DNA from: a virus
DNA length: 27,163 bases
IMG/VR virus record: IMGVR_UViG_3300035201_000073
Coordinates: 1-27,163 of that record
Strand: one strand, 5' to 3'
How positions within the stretch are numbered: the stretch's first letter is position 1; each line of letters starts with the position of its first letter. The notes below the pieces were generated by a model that made no database searches, was not told the DNA's origin, and saw nothing but the letters and a program-made list of their open reading frames with translations. The translations under genes were made by a program, and so were the position numbers. This document shows, piece after piece, positions 3,424-18,987 of the stretch.

Positions 3424-4194
3424 TTACCAAGGATTATCTCCGAGGTGTTCCCCTCGGCATTTGCCTGCCTGCCAGACAGGACACCATTTCGGGGAGCAGT
3501 GCCAGCCTCCCCAATTCATAGGCCATGGTACTTGATTTGAAGCAATCGTCGGCACCATGGACCAACATAATTCTATGAACGCATCCTTGTGTCCCTGTGT
3601 TCGTTCAATGGGGATGATCTGCACCTTCCCATTTACCAGTACACATAACACAAACTCCTCTGTGTCGAATGCGAGACAGTAAGCGTGACTTTGTATGTCC
3701 CAACGCTTCTTCTCCCAAGGTTCGTACTCTCTGCCAGGATTCTTCCAATCCCAGATGGCACCCGACTTGTCGATCCAGTCAGCGGTCCCCGTCAAGATCA
3801 GGTCCACATTGTTTCTTACCCCTAGAGATATCTCGAATGATTCTTCTATCCCCACGGGGTCAAGGTTGGGCATCACCTCTCTGTGCCATGCCTCAACATT
3901 CGCCATCACTGTGTCCACGGTCTTCTCGTAGCTGTGTCTCCACTCCTCTACCTTGGGTGCTTCGTTGACTAGATAGTCTTCCGCCACATTCAGTAACTCA
4001 TCTAAAGTCAACGGAGCTAAGGCGTGCATCATCCCCTCGCCATAAGTTTCTATGGCGTGGTGAACTGCGTTACCCCTAAGCAGATCTGATGTTTCTTTTT
4101 GTGGGCCTACAAGTTTGTATCGTTCTTGTCTTGCTTGCTCAGGGCATCGCAAGAAAGTGTTGATCCAACTTTGTCTTAGCCTGATTTCTATCAT
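3424..4194 (-). CDS. Cas4/RecB-like PD-(D/E)XK exonuclease with predicted Fe-S cluster
   Basis: This 256-aa protein shows the full RecB-family nuclease signature: His45/His46 in GNAVHHAIE, Asp139 in GTADWID, Asp149-x-Lys151 in WDWKN, and Gln168...Tyr172 in QSHAYCLA. Cys17 (RCPEQ) plus Cys233, Cys238 and Cys246 near the C-terminus form the split four-cysteine pattern that holds a 4Fe-4S cluster in Cas4 and AddB nucleases. It probably resects DNA ends in phage recombination or replication. The start has a GGGAG ribosome site and follows a terminator-like double hairpin, so it may begin its own transcription unit. Confidence 0.9.
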   Translation of the reverse strand: MIEIRLRQSWINTFLRCPEQARQERYKLVGPQKETSDLLRGNAVHHAIETYGEGMMHALAPLTLDELLNVAEDYLVNEAPKVEEWRHSYEKTVDTVMANVEAWHREVMPNLDPVGIEESFEISLGVRNNVDLILTGTADWIDKSGAIWDWKNPGREYEPWEKKRWDIQSHAYCLAFDTEEFVLCVLVNGKVQIIPIERTQGHKDAFIELCWSMVPTIASNQVPWPMNWGGWHCSPKWCPVWQAGKCRGEHLGDNPW

Positions 4195-13105: not shown

Positions 13106-13558
13106 ATGCCACAAAACGGTGGAGGCCGAGGATGGTCCACAGACCCAGACACAGGTGAACAAGTCATGCCCAACCAATGGGCAGAATTTCTGGATTGGCT
13201 GTTGTCGGATGAGCGTACTCCGTCTTCTGCTAGGGAGTGGTGTGCCGAGCGTGACTTGAATGAGCGTACGGTTCGGAGGTGGAAGTCTGATCCTCGGTTT
13301 GTTCGTGAGTGGGACCGCAGGGCTGCTGAATTGAACGTCCACCCCGAGCGTACCCAGTCAGTAGTTGACGCTCTGTACAAGCAGGCTGCGCAGGGTGATG
13401 TTAAGGCGGCTTCTTTGTACTTACAGTACATAGAACGGTTCACTCCGAAGCGGAGAGTGGTGGTTGATGATGAGCGTGAGACATCTGGTATGTCTGATGC
13501 GGAGTTGGCTGCAGAACTGGATGGTCTTATTGCTGGATTAAGGAGCGAGGATGCCTAA
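13106..13558 (+). CDS. terS: Terminase small subunit
   Basis: The 150-aa protein has a helix-turn-helix region (SAREWCAERDLNERTVRRWKSDPRF, about residues 45-70) and the segment ALYKQAAQGDVKAASLYLQYIERF near residues 94-112, which is typical of small terminase subunits related to the phBC6A51 type. It recognises phage DNA and loads the packaging motor. The acidic C-terminus (MSDAELAAELDGLIAGLRSEDA) may bind the large subunit. The ATG has a perfect AGGAGG site. It is the first rightward gene, next to the non-coding region where a packaging site is likely. Confidence 0.88.
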   Translation: MPQNGGGRGWSTDPDTGEQVMPNQWAEFLDWLLSDERTPSSAREWCAERDLNERTVRRWKSDPRFVREWDRRAAELNVHPERTQSVVDALYKQAAQGDVKAASLYLQYIERFTPKRRVVVDDERETSGMSDAELAAELDGLIAGLRSEDA

Positions 13559-14070: not shown

Positions 14071-14352
14071 GTGTCGATAGAAGATGTAGCAGAACGGGCT
14101 GATGTTTGGTCTGAGGCTATTAAAAAGATTGTTAAGGCCATTACAGCGGCTGGCGTTGCGTTGGCGGCAGCGATTGGTGGATTACTTATGTGGTGGCCCT
14201 TTGGCGTGAGTGAGCCTGAGGAGCCGATTGGGTTGATTGATGGTGCAGGTTATGGGGCGCAATGCAGTCAGTTGTATAGCGCTATAGATATCACTTGGAC
14301 GGAGCAACAGTGGTCTGTTTGGGAGCAGTTGAAGAAAGATATGGGTTGCTAA
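14071..14352 (+). CDS. Single-pass membrane protein, unknown
   Basis: GTG at 14071 follows a GGGGG site. The 93-aa product has an acidic amphipathic N-terminus, one transmembrane segment at residues about 22-44 (KAITAAGVALAAAIGGLLMWWPF), then a short acidic linker and a C-terminal domain with two cysteines (AQCSQLYSAIDITWTEQQW and the terminal Cys). A holin-like role is possible but untested. Its stop overlaps the oxygenase stop on the other strand by four bases. Confidence 0.78.
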   Translation: MSIEDVAERADVWSEAIKKIVKAITAAGVALAAAIGGLLMWWPFGVSEPEEPIGLIDGAGYGAQCSQLYSAIDITWTEQQWSVWEQLKKDMGC

Positions 14353-14963
14353 CGGAAGGGGTACCCGTTGTACCACATGACTGCGCTGTGGCGTTCACCA
14401 CTGGTAACTGGTGTTACTCTGTGGTCCATGAAACTTGGGAATACTGCTATTGATCCTCGTTCTGCGTCGTTGAAACGATGAAGTTTGTCGTAGCAGCGAA
14501 TCTGGAATTCGCCGCCTTCGTAGTCGGAAGAATGCGAAAGGTTGACTGTTGCTGAGAGTTTACGCACGGTTCCCTGTAGCTCTGGGAACGGGGTCAGGTT
14601 CAGGGGAATCGGGTCAGGGATCTGACTGGAAGGAAGAAGTCTGCGAGCAGCGTGGTTGTCGGAGTTGCCGTCAATGTGCCAGTCGTAGTATCCGTCTACG
14701 CTGTAGCGTGTATATTGGAGAGCTTCTGGTTTATGTAAGTCAAACGACCAGCCTGCTTCTTTGTTTGCTTGCCGAATCCAGGCTGAAACTAGATCGTTTA
14801 TTTTTTCGTTATAGATCCAAGAAATTTGGGATTTCCGATGTTCTTCGGATTGTCCGAAATGGATTCCTTCAATTTGTTGTTCCAAGGCCGCGGCGTGTTG
14901 AATCTCGTCGCATTGCTGTGGGGTTAAAGCCTCTGGAATCCACCAGTAATGATTGGTAAGCAC
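14349..14963 (-). CDS. 2OG-Fe(II) oxygenase, prolyl-hydroxylase-like
   Basis: The 204-aa protein has the full iron and 2-oxoglutarate site: His96-x-Asp98 in YYDWHIDGN, His181 in SFMDHRVTPV and Arg191 in GERHSAVMWYNG, in a double-stranded beta-helix context with LSATVNLSHSSDYEGGEF. It resembles the PKHD-type hydroxylases found in many marine phages. The substrate is unknown; a protein or a nucleic acid base is possible. It is the only minus-strand gene inside the rightward late block, and its GTG start abuts the terminase start, so it probably has its own regulation and behaves like an added moron gene. Confidence 0.9.
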   Translation of the reverse strand: MLTNHYWWIPEALTPQQCDEIQHAAALEQQIEGIHFGQSEEHRKSQISWIYNEKINDLVSAWIRQANKEAGWSFDLHKPEALQYTRYSVDGYYDWHIDGNSDNHAARRLLPSSQIPDPIPLNLTPFPELQGTVRKLSATVNLSHSSDYEGGEFQIRCYDKLHRFNDAERGSIAVFPSFMDHRVTPVTSGERHSAVMWYNGYPFR

Positions 14964-14964
14964 T

Positions 14965-15849
14965 ATGTCTAGGCTAGCAGAACTACGTCAGGAAGCTGAA
15001 TGGAGAAAGTGTGTACGGGATGAAAAACATTTTTTACAAAACTATTGGTACATTGCTCACCCTGCTCACGGTCGTATTCTTTTTGCTTTACGTGAGGCTC
15101 AGGCGGAAGCTATCGACCATTGGGAAAAGAATAGATATTCGCTTACCTTAAAGGCACGCCAGATTGGGTGGAGCACCCTAGTGGCTGCTCACCAGTTTTG
15201 GTTAGCATTTTTTCATCCAGATCAGAACATCATTGATTTGAGTCGTACAGAACGAGAAGCTGTGTTGTTGCTGCGTAAAACCAAGTACGGATTTCAGCAT
15301 TTACCGAAATGGATGATAGAGCGTGGACCTAAGTCTTTGGTTGAGCATCAACAACGAATGGGATTCGACAACGGAAGCCAGGTTACGTCGATGCCTTCTG
15401 CTTCAGATCCTGCCCGTGGCGAATCAGCGACACTTATCGTGGTTGACGAGTGGGCATTCTTACCGAATGCGGAAGAAGCATGGGCGAGTATCGAACCTGT
15501 AGCTGACGTAGGTGGCCGAATTATCGGCCTTTCTACTGCTAATGGTTCAGGGAACTTTTATCACCAGTTGTGGGTTGGGGCTACTACAGGGTCAAATAAG
15601 TTTGAGCCTATGTTTTATCCGTGGTCTGCTACCGAAGATAGGGGGGAGTCATGGTACATGGAGAAAGTGGAATCCATGTTGCCTTGGCAGCTTGCACAGG
15701 AGTATCCGACTACGCCTGAAGAGGCTTTCGTTAAGTCAGGTAACCCTGTGTTTGATTTAGATATTCTTGATGCCATGGAACGTACGGTAACTCACGGCGA
15801 AGTTGGCTACATGTTTAAGGGACCTGGGATTTTGGAGTTTCGTTCGTAA
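14965..15849 (+). CDS. terL: Terminase large subunit, ATPase part (separate gene)
   Basis: This 294-aa protein is the N-terminal motor of the packaging terminase. It shows a Walker A-like KARQIGWST at residues 63-71, a Walker B LIVVDE at 157-162 with the following WAFLPNAEEAW, and the coupling motif region GLSTANGSG. It ends at a TAA just after ILEFRS, where homologues continue straight into the nuclease domain. ATG 14965 is preferred to an in-frame TTG at 14953, which would overlap the oxygenase gene. The next gene starts on this stop (TAATG) in the -1 frame. Confidence 0.9.
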   Translation: MSRLAELRQEAEWRKCVRDEKHFLQNYWYIAHPAHGRILFALREAQAEAIDHWEKNRYSLTLKARQIGWSTLVAAHQFWLAFFHPDQNIIDLSRTEREAVLLLRKTKYGFQHLPKWMIERGPKSLVEHQQRMGFDNGSQVTSMPSASDPARGESATLIVVDEWAFLPNAEEAWASIEPVADVGGRIIGLSTANGSGNFYHQLWVGATTGSNKFEPMFYPWSATEDRGESWYMEKVESMLPWQLAQEYPTTPEEAFVKSGNPVFDLDILDAMERTVTHGEVGYMFKGPGILEFRS

Positions 15850-16520
15850 TGGCTTTAGAAGTTTGGGAACGACCAGGACCTCGTAGTGCCTATGTGATGG
15901 GTGTTGATACGGCTGAGGGGTTGAAACATGGGGATTACAGTGTTATTCAGGTGTTAAATGTGGGTTCAGGGAATCAGGCAGCTATTTGGCATGGGCACAT
16001 CGCACCTGATTTGTTGGCTGATGAGGTAGATAACATTGGCCGTTGGTTTAACCAAGCTTTGTGTTGTGTGGAATCAAATAACCATGGGCTTACAACGATC
16101 ACCGAGTTGCGGCATTTGGGATATCCGACATTGTTTCGTAAGCGTTCTTTGAACAATGTGAATAACAGGATCGGGCAAGAGTATGGTTGGAAGACTACTC
16201 GTACGTCTAAACCTTTGATGATTGATGATCTGAGTTCGGCTTTACGGAACGAGGAGTTGATTATTCGGGATCGCCATACTTTAGCGGAATTGCGAACTTA
16301 TGTTCGTAACGACAGGGGCAGTATGGGTGGTTCTCCGTACGATGACCGTGTGATGGCGTTAGCTTTGGCTAATCAGATGCGTAAATATGCTCACGAACCT
16401 GAATACAAAGTAGAAATTAACGACTATTGGACAGTTGACTGGTTTGCTCGGATGATAACTAATCAACCTGAAGGTTCGTCAACTCGGATAGGTTCTACTA
16501 CTGTTCGTGGGACACACTAA
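15849..16520 (+). CDS. terL: Terminase large subunit, nuclease part (separate gene)
   Basis: The 223-aa product is the RNase H-like nuclease half of a large terminase. Acidic catalytic residues are at Asp20 (GVDTAEG), Glu75 (CVESNNHG) and Asp165/Asp166 (YDDRVMALALA). It begins MALEVWERPGPRSAYV, the segment that joins ATPase and nuclease in single-chain relatives. The start codon shares bases with the ATPase stop and has a distant GGAG. Together the two products total 517 aa, a normal large terminase length, so no residues appear lost. Confidence 0.88.
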   Translation: MALEVWERPGPRSAYVMGVDTAEGLKHGDYSVIQVLNVGSGNQAAIWHGHIAPDLLADEVDNIGRWFNQALCCVESNNHGLTTITELRHLGYPTLFRKRSLNNVNNRIGQEYGWKTTRTSKPLMIDDLSSALRNEELIIRDRHTLAELRTYVRNDRGSMGGSPYDDRVMALALANQMRKYAHEPEYKVEINDYWTVDWFARMITNQPEGSSTRIGSTTVRGTH

Positions 16521-16846: not shown

Positions 16847-17116
16847 ATGGCTGTCCTCCCAGATGGGGCCAGCTTTGAAGAGTTCGCTGATTATGTTTTG
16901 GCACGGCGAGATGTGCCTTTGCCAGAGCTAAAGGAACTCTATGAACGTCGCTTACGTCTAAAATCAGTTACTGTTTCCACGGGGCAAGGGTTTCAATCTA
17001 CCCTTCCCCGTGACGAGCAGGGCTTAACTAATCGTGAACGTGAAGCGAAGGTGTTCGCAGAGGCTAAGTCTCAAGGACGTAACATAGAGAAGCTCCCAGA
17101 GAAAGCTCAGTTCTGA
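16847..17116 (+). CDS. Unknown 89-aa protein before portal
   Basis: The product has an acidic helical N-terminal half (FEEFADYVLARRDVPLPELKELYERRLRL) and a charged C-terminal helix (NREREAKVFAEAKSQGRNIEKL). Its stop overlaps the portal start as TGATG. No family is recognised; the position before the portal is conserved for small head-assembly genes in many phages but no role is shown. Confidence 0.76.
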   Translation: MAVLPDGASFEEFADYVLARRDVPLPELKELYERRLRLKSVTVSTGQGFQSTLPRDEQGLTNREREAKVFAEAKSQGRNIEKLPEKAQF

Positions 17117-18987
17117 TGCCTAAAAAGTCTCGCCAAGAACTCTTGTCCGAATACATAGATCATGTTGAAAAGTGTTCCAAATGGCGTGACCAACAAGGCT
17201 ACGAATACACTTGGCGTCGCCTAATCGATTTGTATAAAGGCAAACACTGGCCTTCAACAACTTCTAATGAGCAAGACCTCATAGCTGTCAATTTAGCGTT
17301 TTCGACAGTCAATGTTATAGCTCCAAGCGTTGCAGTGAACTACCCGAAAATCGTTGTTCAAGCAACCAAAGAAGAAAATGTTGACAGAGCAGTATTCGTT
17401 GAAGCGATCATTAACTACATGTGGAAACATCACAATTTCCGCGATCCTTTCCGTACCGCAGTTAAAGACTTCCTCATATTTGGTCACGGATGGCTAAAAG
17501 TAGGTTGGAAGTTTTTAGAACAGCCACAACTAGTTAGCGAAATAGAGCGAGAATCCCTAATAGACCAAGCTTTTCAAGAAGTTGCCGATTTCGCAGCAGA
17601 TAGTCCTGAGCTAGCTGCGGACCTTCCCACAGACGAAGATATTTACGCCAATGTTCCTCAAACAATTATGAGGGTAGTGGAAGATCAGCCGTTCGTGGAA
17701 AGGATCTCTCCCTTCGATGTCTACGTTGATCCGCAAGCAACAACGCTTGAAGAAGCGTCATGGATTGCTCAACGTCTTGTAAGACCTCTCGAAGAAGCCA
17801 AAAACGATAACCGTTATAAGCCTTCTGCAAGAAAACGGTTATCGAACAACTATGTCCCAGACATAGACAAAGAAGAAATAAACGACAAAGCCCAATATCT
17901 CCCAGAACAAGTAGTTCTCTGGGAATACTACGACATGAAAGCGAACACGCTTTCTGTCTATGCCGATGGGGCAGACGAATTCCTGATTGACCCTGTTTCA
18001 ATGCCATACGCATACGGGCAACCGTTTGTAATGGTCAGGAACTACGACGTTCCAGACCAGTTCTATCCAATAGGTGACTTGGAAAGCATCGAAAGCCTTC
18101 AACTAGAGCTTGACAAAACTCGTAGCCAGTTGATGAATGACAGGAAACGGTACGCACGTAAATGGTTGTACCATGAGCGTTCGTTCGGCCCTGAAGGCCG
18201 AGAAGCTCTCGAATCAGAAGACGACGGGCGAATGGTTCCTGTCGTGGACGAGAACAAACCACTATCAGAAGTGGTTGTTCCAATGCCTCAAATACCGATG
18301 AGTGCCGATATGTACAACTATTCGGCAATTATCGAAGACGATATCAACACAGTTTCAGGTATTTCTGAGTATGCACGGGGCGCAATGCCCGAAATACGAC
18401 GCACAGCTACTGAAGCGAGCATTGTCGCTGATGCACAGAATGCTCGTTCGGCAGACAAGTTAGCTATTGTAGAGATTTGTATTTCTCATGTAGCTAGACG
18501 AGTCATACAACTGATGCAACAGTTTATGACGGGGGACCAAATAGCTAGAGTTACGAGTGTTGGTGGCGAAGATATGTTCGTCAATTATGCCCGAGAAGAC
18601 ATTACTGGTGAATACGATTTCTCTGTTCAGGCTGGTTCTACTCAGCCGATGAACGATACGATTCGCAAGCAACAAGCCATTTCGCTTATGAATGCTGTGG
18701 CTCCGCTTGTTGGTACTGTTATTGACCCTGCTGCTTTAGCGATGCATGTGTTGGAGAATGGTTTTGGTATCAAAGATCCAGCGAAGTTTATTGTGCAGGC
18801 CCAACCAGCGCCACAAGAGGCAGAAGAAGCCCCTGGCGAAGAACAAATGGTTCCACCGCCGCCAGATTTAGGTGGCGTACCTATGCCAGAAGGCCAAGAT
18901 GGTGCGTTTGCACCTACTGGCGGAGTGCCTCCAGAGCTTCTTTTGCAACTTCAGAATCAGATGGGACTTGAGCTTCCTTCCCTGTAA
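17116..18987 (+). CDS. Portal protein
   Basis: The 623-aa protein has the typical portal layout: an N-terminal YTWRRLIDLYKGKHWP segment, a wing region with FLIFGHGWLKVGWKF, the long stem and crown helices around DLESIESLQLELDKTRSQL and a helical domain with TATEASIVADAQNARSADKLA. The last ~60 residues are Pro/Gly/Glu-rich and probably disordered (PAPQEAEEAPGEEQMVPPPP). The portal forms the dodecameric ring that passes DNA into the capsid. Its place after terminase and before scaffold and capsid genes supports the call. Confidence 0.93.
   Translation: MPKKSRQELLSEYIDHVEKCSKWRDQQGYEYTWRRLIDLYKGKHWPSTTSNEQDLIAVNLAFSTVNVIAPSVAVNYPKIVVQATKEENVDRAVFVEAIINYMWKHHNFRDPFRTAVKDFLIFGHGWLKVGWKFLEQPQLVSEIERESLIDQAFQEVADFAADSPELAADLPTDEDIYANVPQTIMRVVEDQPFVERISPFDVYVDPQATTLEEASWIAQRLVRPLEEAKNDNRYKPSARKRLSNNYVPDIDKEEINDKAQYLPEQVVLWEYYDMKANTLSVYADGADEFLIDPVSMPYAYGQPFVMVRNYDVPDQFYPIGDLESIESLQLELDKTRSQLMNDRKRYARKWLYHERSFGPEGREALESEDDGRMVPVVDENKPLSEVVVPMPQIPMSADMYNYSAIIEDDINTVSGISEYARGAMPEIRRTATEASIVADAQNARSADKLAIVEICISHVARRVIQLMQQFMTGDQIARVTSVGGEDMFVNYAREDITGEYDFSVQAGSTQPMNDTIRKQQAISLMNAVAPLVGTVIDPAALAMHVLENGFGIKDPAKFIVQAQPAPQEAEEAPGEEQMVPPPPDLGGVPMPEGQDGAFAPTGGVPPELLLQLQNQMGLELPSL

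Follow-up and report, generated by a model that had tools for sequence, protein, structure and literature searches.

The large terminase (TerL) gp17 of phage T4 and the other fused gp17-like TerL proteins (Terminase_6N/6C) are single chains. According to reviews of T4, when gp17 is cut at the linker, the ATPase and nuclease activities are kept and translocation is lost (PMC3012670, PMC9958956); therefore, reassembly of two separate chains into a working motor is not to be assumed. ATPase and nuclease are encoded separately in Arthrobacter cluster AY and Gordonia phages (PMC11920828), and the records of BillyTP and Isolde (Arthrobacter AY) and of Nyceirae and Dogfish (Gordonia) show a split TerL, with no inserted gene between the halves in the AY and Gordonia records examined. 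In Streptomyces phage Kromp, which is related to these phages, TerL is fused. In the Jug phages and vibriophage ICP1, the terL ORF also appears in pieces, being interrupted by group I introns, and RNA splicing yields one chain (PMC12363816, PMC10448857). The initial annotation of the DNA described here took single-chain terminases to be the norm, which is correct; yet, with those of actinobacteriophages already annotated, the split TerL is a known kind and not unprecedented.

The DNA analysed, hereafter the window, is the whole stretch of 27,163 nt of IMG/VR virus record IMGVR_UViG_3300035201_000073, and its terminase features are collected in Table 1. Unlike T4 gp17 and its fused relatives, the window has two genes whose stop and start codons overlap: the ATPase gene ends with TAA at 15847-15849, the ATG of the nuclease gene begins at 15849, one base is shared, and the nuclease ORF lies in the -1 frame relative to the ATPase ORF, exactly as the initial annotation had placed them. 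One-base stop/start overlaps are common in this genome and are likewise found at 17116, 24734 and 26164. The flanking small terminase and portal genes are the same neighbours as those of fused gp17-like relatives, and the scaffold and major head protein genes lie farther along the window, past the portal gene. A gene for a 204-aa 2OG-Fe(II) oxygenase (phrog_61, E 1e-34) is located antisense between the small terminase and ATPase genes (14349-14963, minus strand).

Table 1. Features of the two-gene large terminase locus in the window
Feature	Position	Strand	Basis
Large terminase ATPase chain, 294 aa	14965..15849	+	ORF; Pfam PF03237; T4 gp17 profile match
Large terminase nuclease chain, 223 aa, RNase H-like	15849..16520	+	ORF; AlphaFold model match to T4 gp17
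TAATG stop/start overlap of ATPase and nuclease genes	15847..15851	+	Same TAATG in independent contig L082
GGAG, Shine-Dalgarno-like, 11 nt 5' of nuclease ATG	15834..15837	+	Enrichment of SD-like motifs here among relatives
Deviant Walker A KARQIGWST, ATPase K63-T71	15151..15177	+	Lys, Arg and Gly positions invariant in 178 distinct relatives
Walker B and catalytic Glu, IVVDEW (VVDE, residues 159-162)	15436..15453	+	D and E invariant in 178 relatives
Probable small terminase	13106..13558	+	phrog_24579 terminase small subunit, E 8e-7
Portal protein gene, downstream of terminase	17116..18987	+	phrog_156, E 8e-24

Both chains resemble T4 gp17 in domains, domain order and catalytic residues. The ATPase chain matches Terminase_6N (PF03237) above the cut-off (E 5e-9; 36.5 bits against 22), and its profile match covers T4 gp17 residues 108-321 (E 5e-34). 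It carries Walker A and B motifs with the catalytic Glu, as well as a STANG motif at residues 190-194. Its Walker A is deviant and invariant in the family: the motif opens with Lys, and Trp takes the place of the Lys that is customary there and present in T4. The nuclease chain falls just below the cut-off for Terminase_6C (PF17289; E 7e-4; 20 bits against 22.6). It has an RNase H-like fold with an Asp/Glu/Asp site (D20, E75 and D165/D166), and its AlphaFold model (pLDDT 78) matches T4 gp17 (3cpe) at E 9e-13 and also the RB49 and G20c nucleases. The AlphaFold model of the ATPase chain is poor (pLDDT 57). Across 178 distinct complete ATPase-nuclease pairs the charged catalytic residues show no variation, apart from one row with an ambiguous base at K63, which agrees with the earlier reading that both halves keep their motifs. 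The median dN/dS against the window is 0.08 for the ATPase gene and 0.18 for the nuclease gene; judged by these values, purifying selection acts on both.

Comparison with homologues, which the initial annotation had proposed as a check, was carried out by scans of IMG/VR and one scan of GTDB genomes, from each of which the best 80 loci were taken; the frequencies given here are those of this sample, in which redundancy differs between loci. The scans yielded at least 420 loci with both domains, at least 221 of them distinct. Among the matches listed, all 204 distinct junctions whose ATPase has at least 60% identity to a family query have the terminase split into two ORFs that lie in different frames, with strict synteny of the two genes throughout, a recurrence well beyond what chance would give; in the 17 other, more distant loci it is always fused. 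The split junctions come from many metagenomes, and contig L082, from another metagenome than the window, shares the window's TAATG, in surroundings about 91% identical at the DNA level. Fused in addition to these 17 are the L142 group, in which ten loci were confirmed, and the nearest annotated fused relative, MW202803.1 (Manatee Spring), a single 560-aa ORF about 54% (ATPase) and 44% (nuclease) identical to the window chains. Among the matches listed, none was transitional in the identity range from about 54% to 75%.

A maximum-likelihood phylogeny with 33 split and 18 fused terminases, rooted by midpoint, requires one change of state; the split terminases occupy one side of a single branch (support 100/99), with fused MW202803 and L142 as a sister pair to the split clade. 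Because the fused state is found on every outer branch, a single fission in the clade ancestor, from a fused T4-gp17-like TerL, appears the simpler reading, despite the midpoint root and the length of many fused branches. The SGNP motif and the first catalytic Asp are 57 residues apart in the window (both chains counted) and 60 in fused MW202803, and by this measure the cut removed nothing from the terminase. No second TerL was found in 13 family records, most of them of 36-40 kb, each of which has one ATPase and one nuclease locus. One family member (L244) lies in a contig of 93,140 bases, against 36-40 kb for the other near-complete members, and represents either a larger genome or a chimera. 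The two close matches in genome bins, one in a Euryarchaeota MAG and one in an Acidimicrobiaceae MAG, give host signals that disagree and are probably binned virus contigs. The window phage is a member of a marine podovirus lineage with a two-gene large terminase, and the comparisons indicate that the split is old and common to hundreds of relatives in a large marine phage group.

The window shares with the AY and Gordonia phages the arrangement of ATPase and nuclease as two consecutive genes between small terminase and portal. The TerL of those phages, however, belongs to another family (PF20441 TerL_nuclease), and BLASTP of the window ATPase and nuclease chains against it gave no significant similarity; the window chains are therefore not assigned to that family, and the fission in the window clade is taken to be independent. 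The window also differs from Jug and ICP1 terL, since there is not a single intervening base between its two pieces and each piece has its own start, and the inserts found in its relatives are complete ORFs, which argues against an intron- or intein-split gene.

To locate the cut, the profile alignment was used, in which ATPase residue 226 corresponds to gp17 residue 321 and nuclease residue 6 to gp17 residue 387; the nuclease Met1 therefore lies near gp17 residue 382. The usual domain boundary of T4 gp17, which we take to be at about residue 360, is about 20 residues short of this start. The ATPase chain would therefore keep the hinge region and about 20 residues that T4 assigns to the C-domain. 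The claim that the join falls in the interdomain linker thus stands insofar as the split is between the domains, but not as to mid-linker: by this alignment the cut sits at the edge of the nuclease fold. The last segment of the ATPase chain has a conserved (V/L/I)EFR, kept at the protein level, as this Arg is encoded by six different codons. The nuclease starts with a conserved (S/T)L(E/T)VW..P, and residues 2-5 of the nuclease chain form a confident strand in the AlphaFold model. The segments that align with these two in fused relatives are continuous, with a short turn-like link between them (VQLV-DGGN-FHIW; NLVE-SPRG-ELAVW). The EFR and LxVW segments may be adjacent beta-strands; the further idea that strand pairing across the cut replaces the covalent hinge is speculative, the hairpin being drawn from the alignment only.

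The lengths of the gene overlap vary among the junctions listed (20 nt in 98, 4 nt in 87, 7 nt in 4 and 1 nt in 4), and the nuclease start codon is ATG, GTG or TTG. A Shine-Dalgarno-like motif 5' of the nuclease start was found in 121 of 170 junctions, against 38.1 +/- 4.9 expected when the last 15 ATPase codons are swapped for synonyms at family frequencies; the spacing in the window is long. The proposal of the initial annotation that two proteins are made by termination-reinitiation is upheld by this enrichment, the varying overlaps, the conserved split and the intervening genes described below. Ribosomes would end the ATPase at its stop and restart at the overlapping nuclease start codon, aided by the GGAG that lies within the last part of the ATPase gene, and both chains would be made together as separate proteins. 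Coupled production of two separate proteins is strongly supported by these sequence features.

In nine distinct loci among those listed, a complete gene was found between the ATPase and nuclease genes, with stop/start overlaps at both ends. Four have an ORF of about 280 aa resembling PAPS reductase (L053, 2626-3459; L057; L066; L067, 6870-7706), with a sub-threshold match to Pfam PAPS_reduct; L078 (1112-1393), L173, L175 and L176 have a Fer4_15 ferredoxin gene of about 90 aa; and the ninth, L198 (about 3885-4019), has a 44-aa cysteine-rich ORF, possibly a zinc-ribbon, with GTGA overlaps on both sides, an ORF also seen at this seam in L205. The ATPase DNA of L067 is 96% identical to that of L068; the seam of the former is filled, with about 830 nt inserted precisely at this point, and that of the latter is empty. 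Given these contents, a homing endonuclease or intein at the seam was considered and rejected. Another family genome has a PAPS-reductase-like copy, 35% identical, immediately upstream of its terminase. In the open-access literature, where intron-split terL and the actinophage split TerL were the only precedents found, we met no description of gene insertions at the TerL seam.

Taken together, we consider it probable that the window encodes a two-gene T4-gp17-like large terminase that arose by a single ancestral fission and is produced by coupled termination-reinitiation, the separate chains coming together again on the portal. The first gene would supply the ATPase motor chain and the second the RNase H-like nuclease/translocation chain, and on the portal the two would most likely form a TerL-like unit again. 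A bolder form of this reading, which we offer only tentatively and rather doubt, is a T4-type motor, widespread in a marine phage clade, free of a covalent link between the ATPase and the translocation/nuclease domain, in which strand pairing keeps the cut hairpin together and a non-covalent hinge passes on the force; the space between the two genes would have come to serve regularly as an insertion site for metabolic cargo genes.

Alternatively, the chains may work apart, with the ATPase alone translocating DNA and the nuclease a free enzyme for the initiation and headful cuts only. The separation of the genes and the room for extra genes between them fit such a division of labour, and motors of the phi29 type translocate DNA although their nuclease domain is vestigial (PMC7672431). 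However, the two genes are strictly syntenic and coupled at each of the 204 junctions listed, the linker residues are kept in collinear order, the EFR and LxVW segments at the cut are conserved, and in T4 the translocation groove is on the C-domain (PMC3012670). All of this speaks against the alternative, and we regard it as unlikely.

Programmed -1 frameshifting, by which the two frames would be joined into a 517-aa fusion, is highly improbable. In its favour, the frame offset is constant where the genes adjoin and the window has 31 nt open in both frames; but a canonical -1 slippery heptamer occurs in only 3 of 195 junctions and not at the window junction, and among the junctions listed the dual-open stretch does not exceed 12 nt in 37 and is absent in 10, so that a conserved heptamer in a shared open stretch is not a feature of the family. 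The SD-like motifs, moreover, are under selection, and the whole genes between the halves in nine loci refute frameshifting for the family, since no fusion is needed in such phages. Where the genes adjoin, a low level of frameshifted fusion product may still be made. Least probable of all is the idea that the window contig was missequenced or misassembled, or was recently disabled by mutation; it has nothing but the rarity of the arrangement in its favour and is refuted by the recurrence of the split across 204 distinct sequences drawn from many metagenomes, the TAATG in L082, the low dN/dS of both genes and the near-complete relatives without another TerL. Frameshift, programmed or by sequencing error, which the initial annotation had kept as the alternative, is therefore refuted as a general explanation by the conservation of the split, the intervening genes and the near-absence of heptamers.

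Within the open-access literature, what is new is the independent fission in the T4-like family, its wide spread and the seam as an insertion site. In T4, a linker cut abolishes translocation, and present models of force transmission give the flexible hinge a central part; a clade in nature that has retained the cut from one ancestor onward would offer a direct test of what the hinge is for. A motor in two pieces would also leave engine and cutter open to separate study and dosing. For annotation the finding is a warning, as automated searches for a full-length TerL will call these phages truncated or broken.
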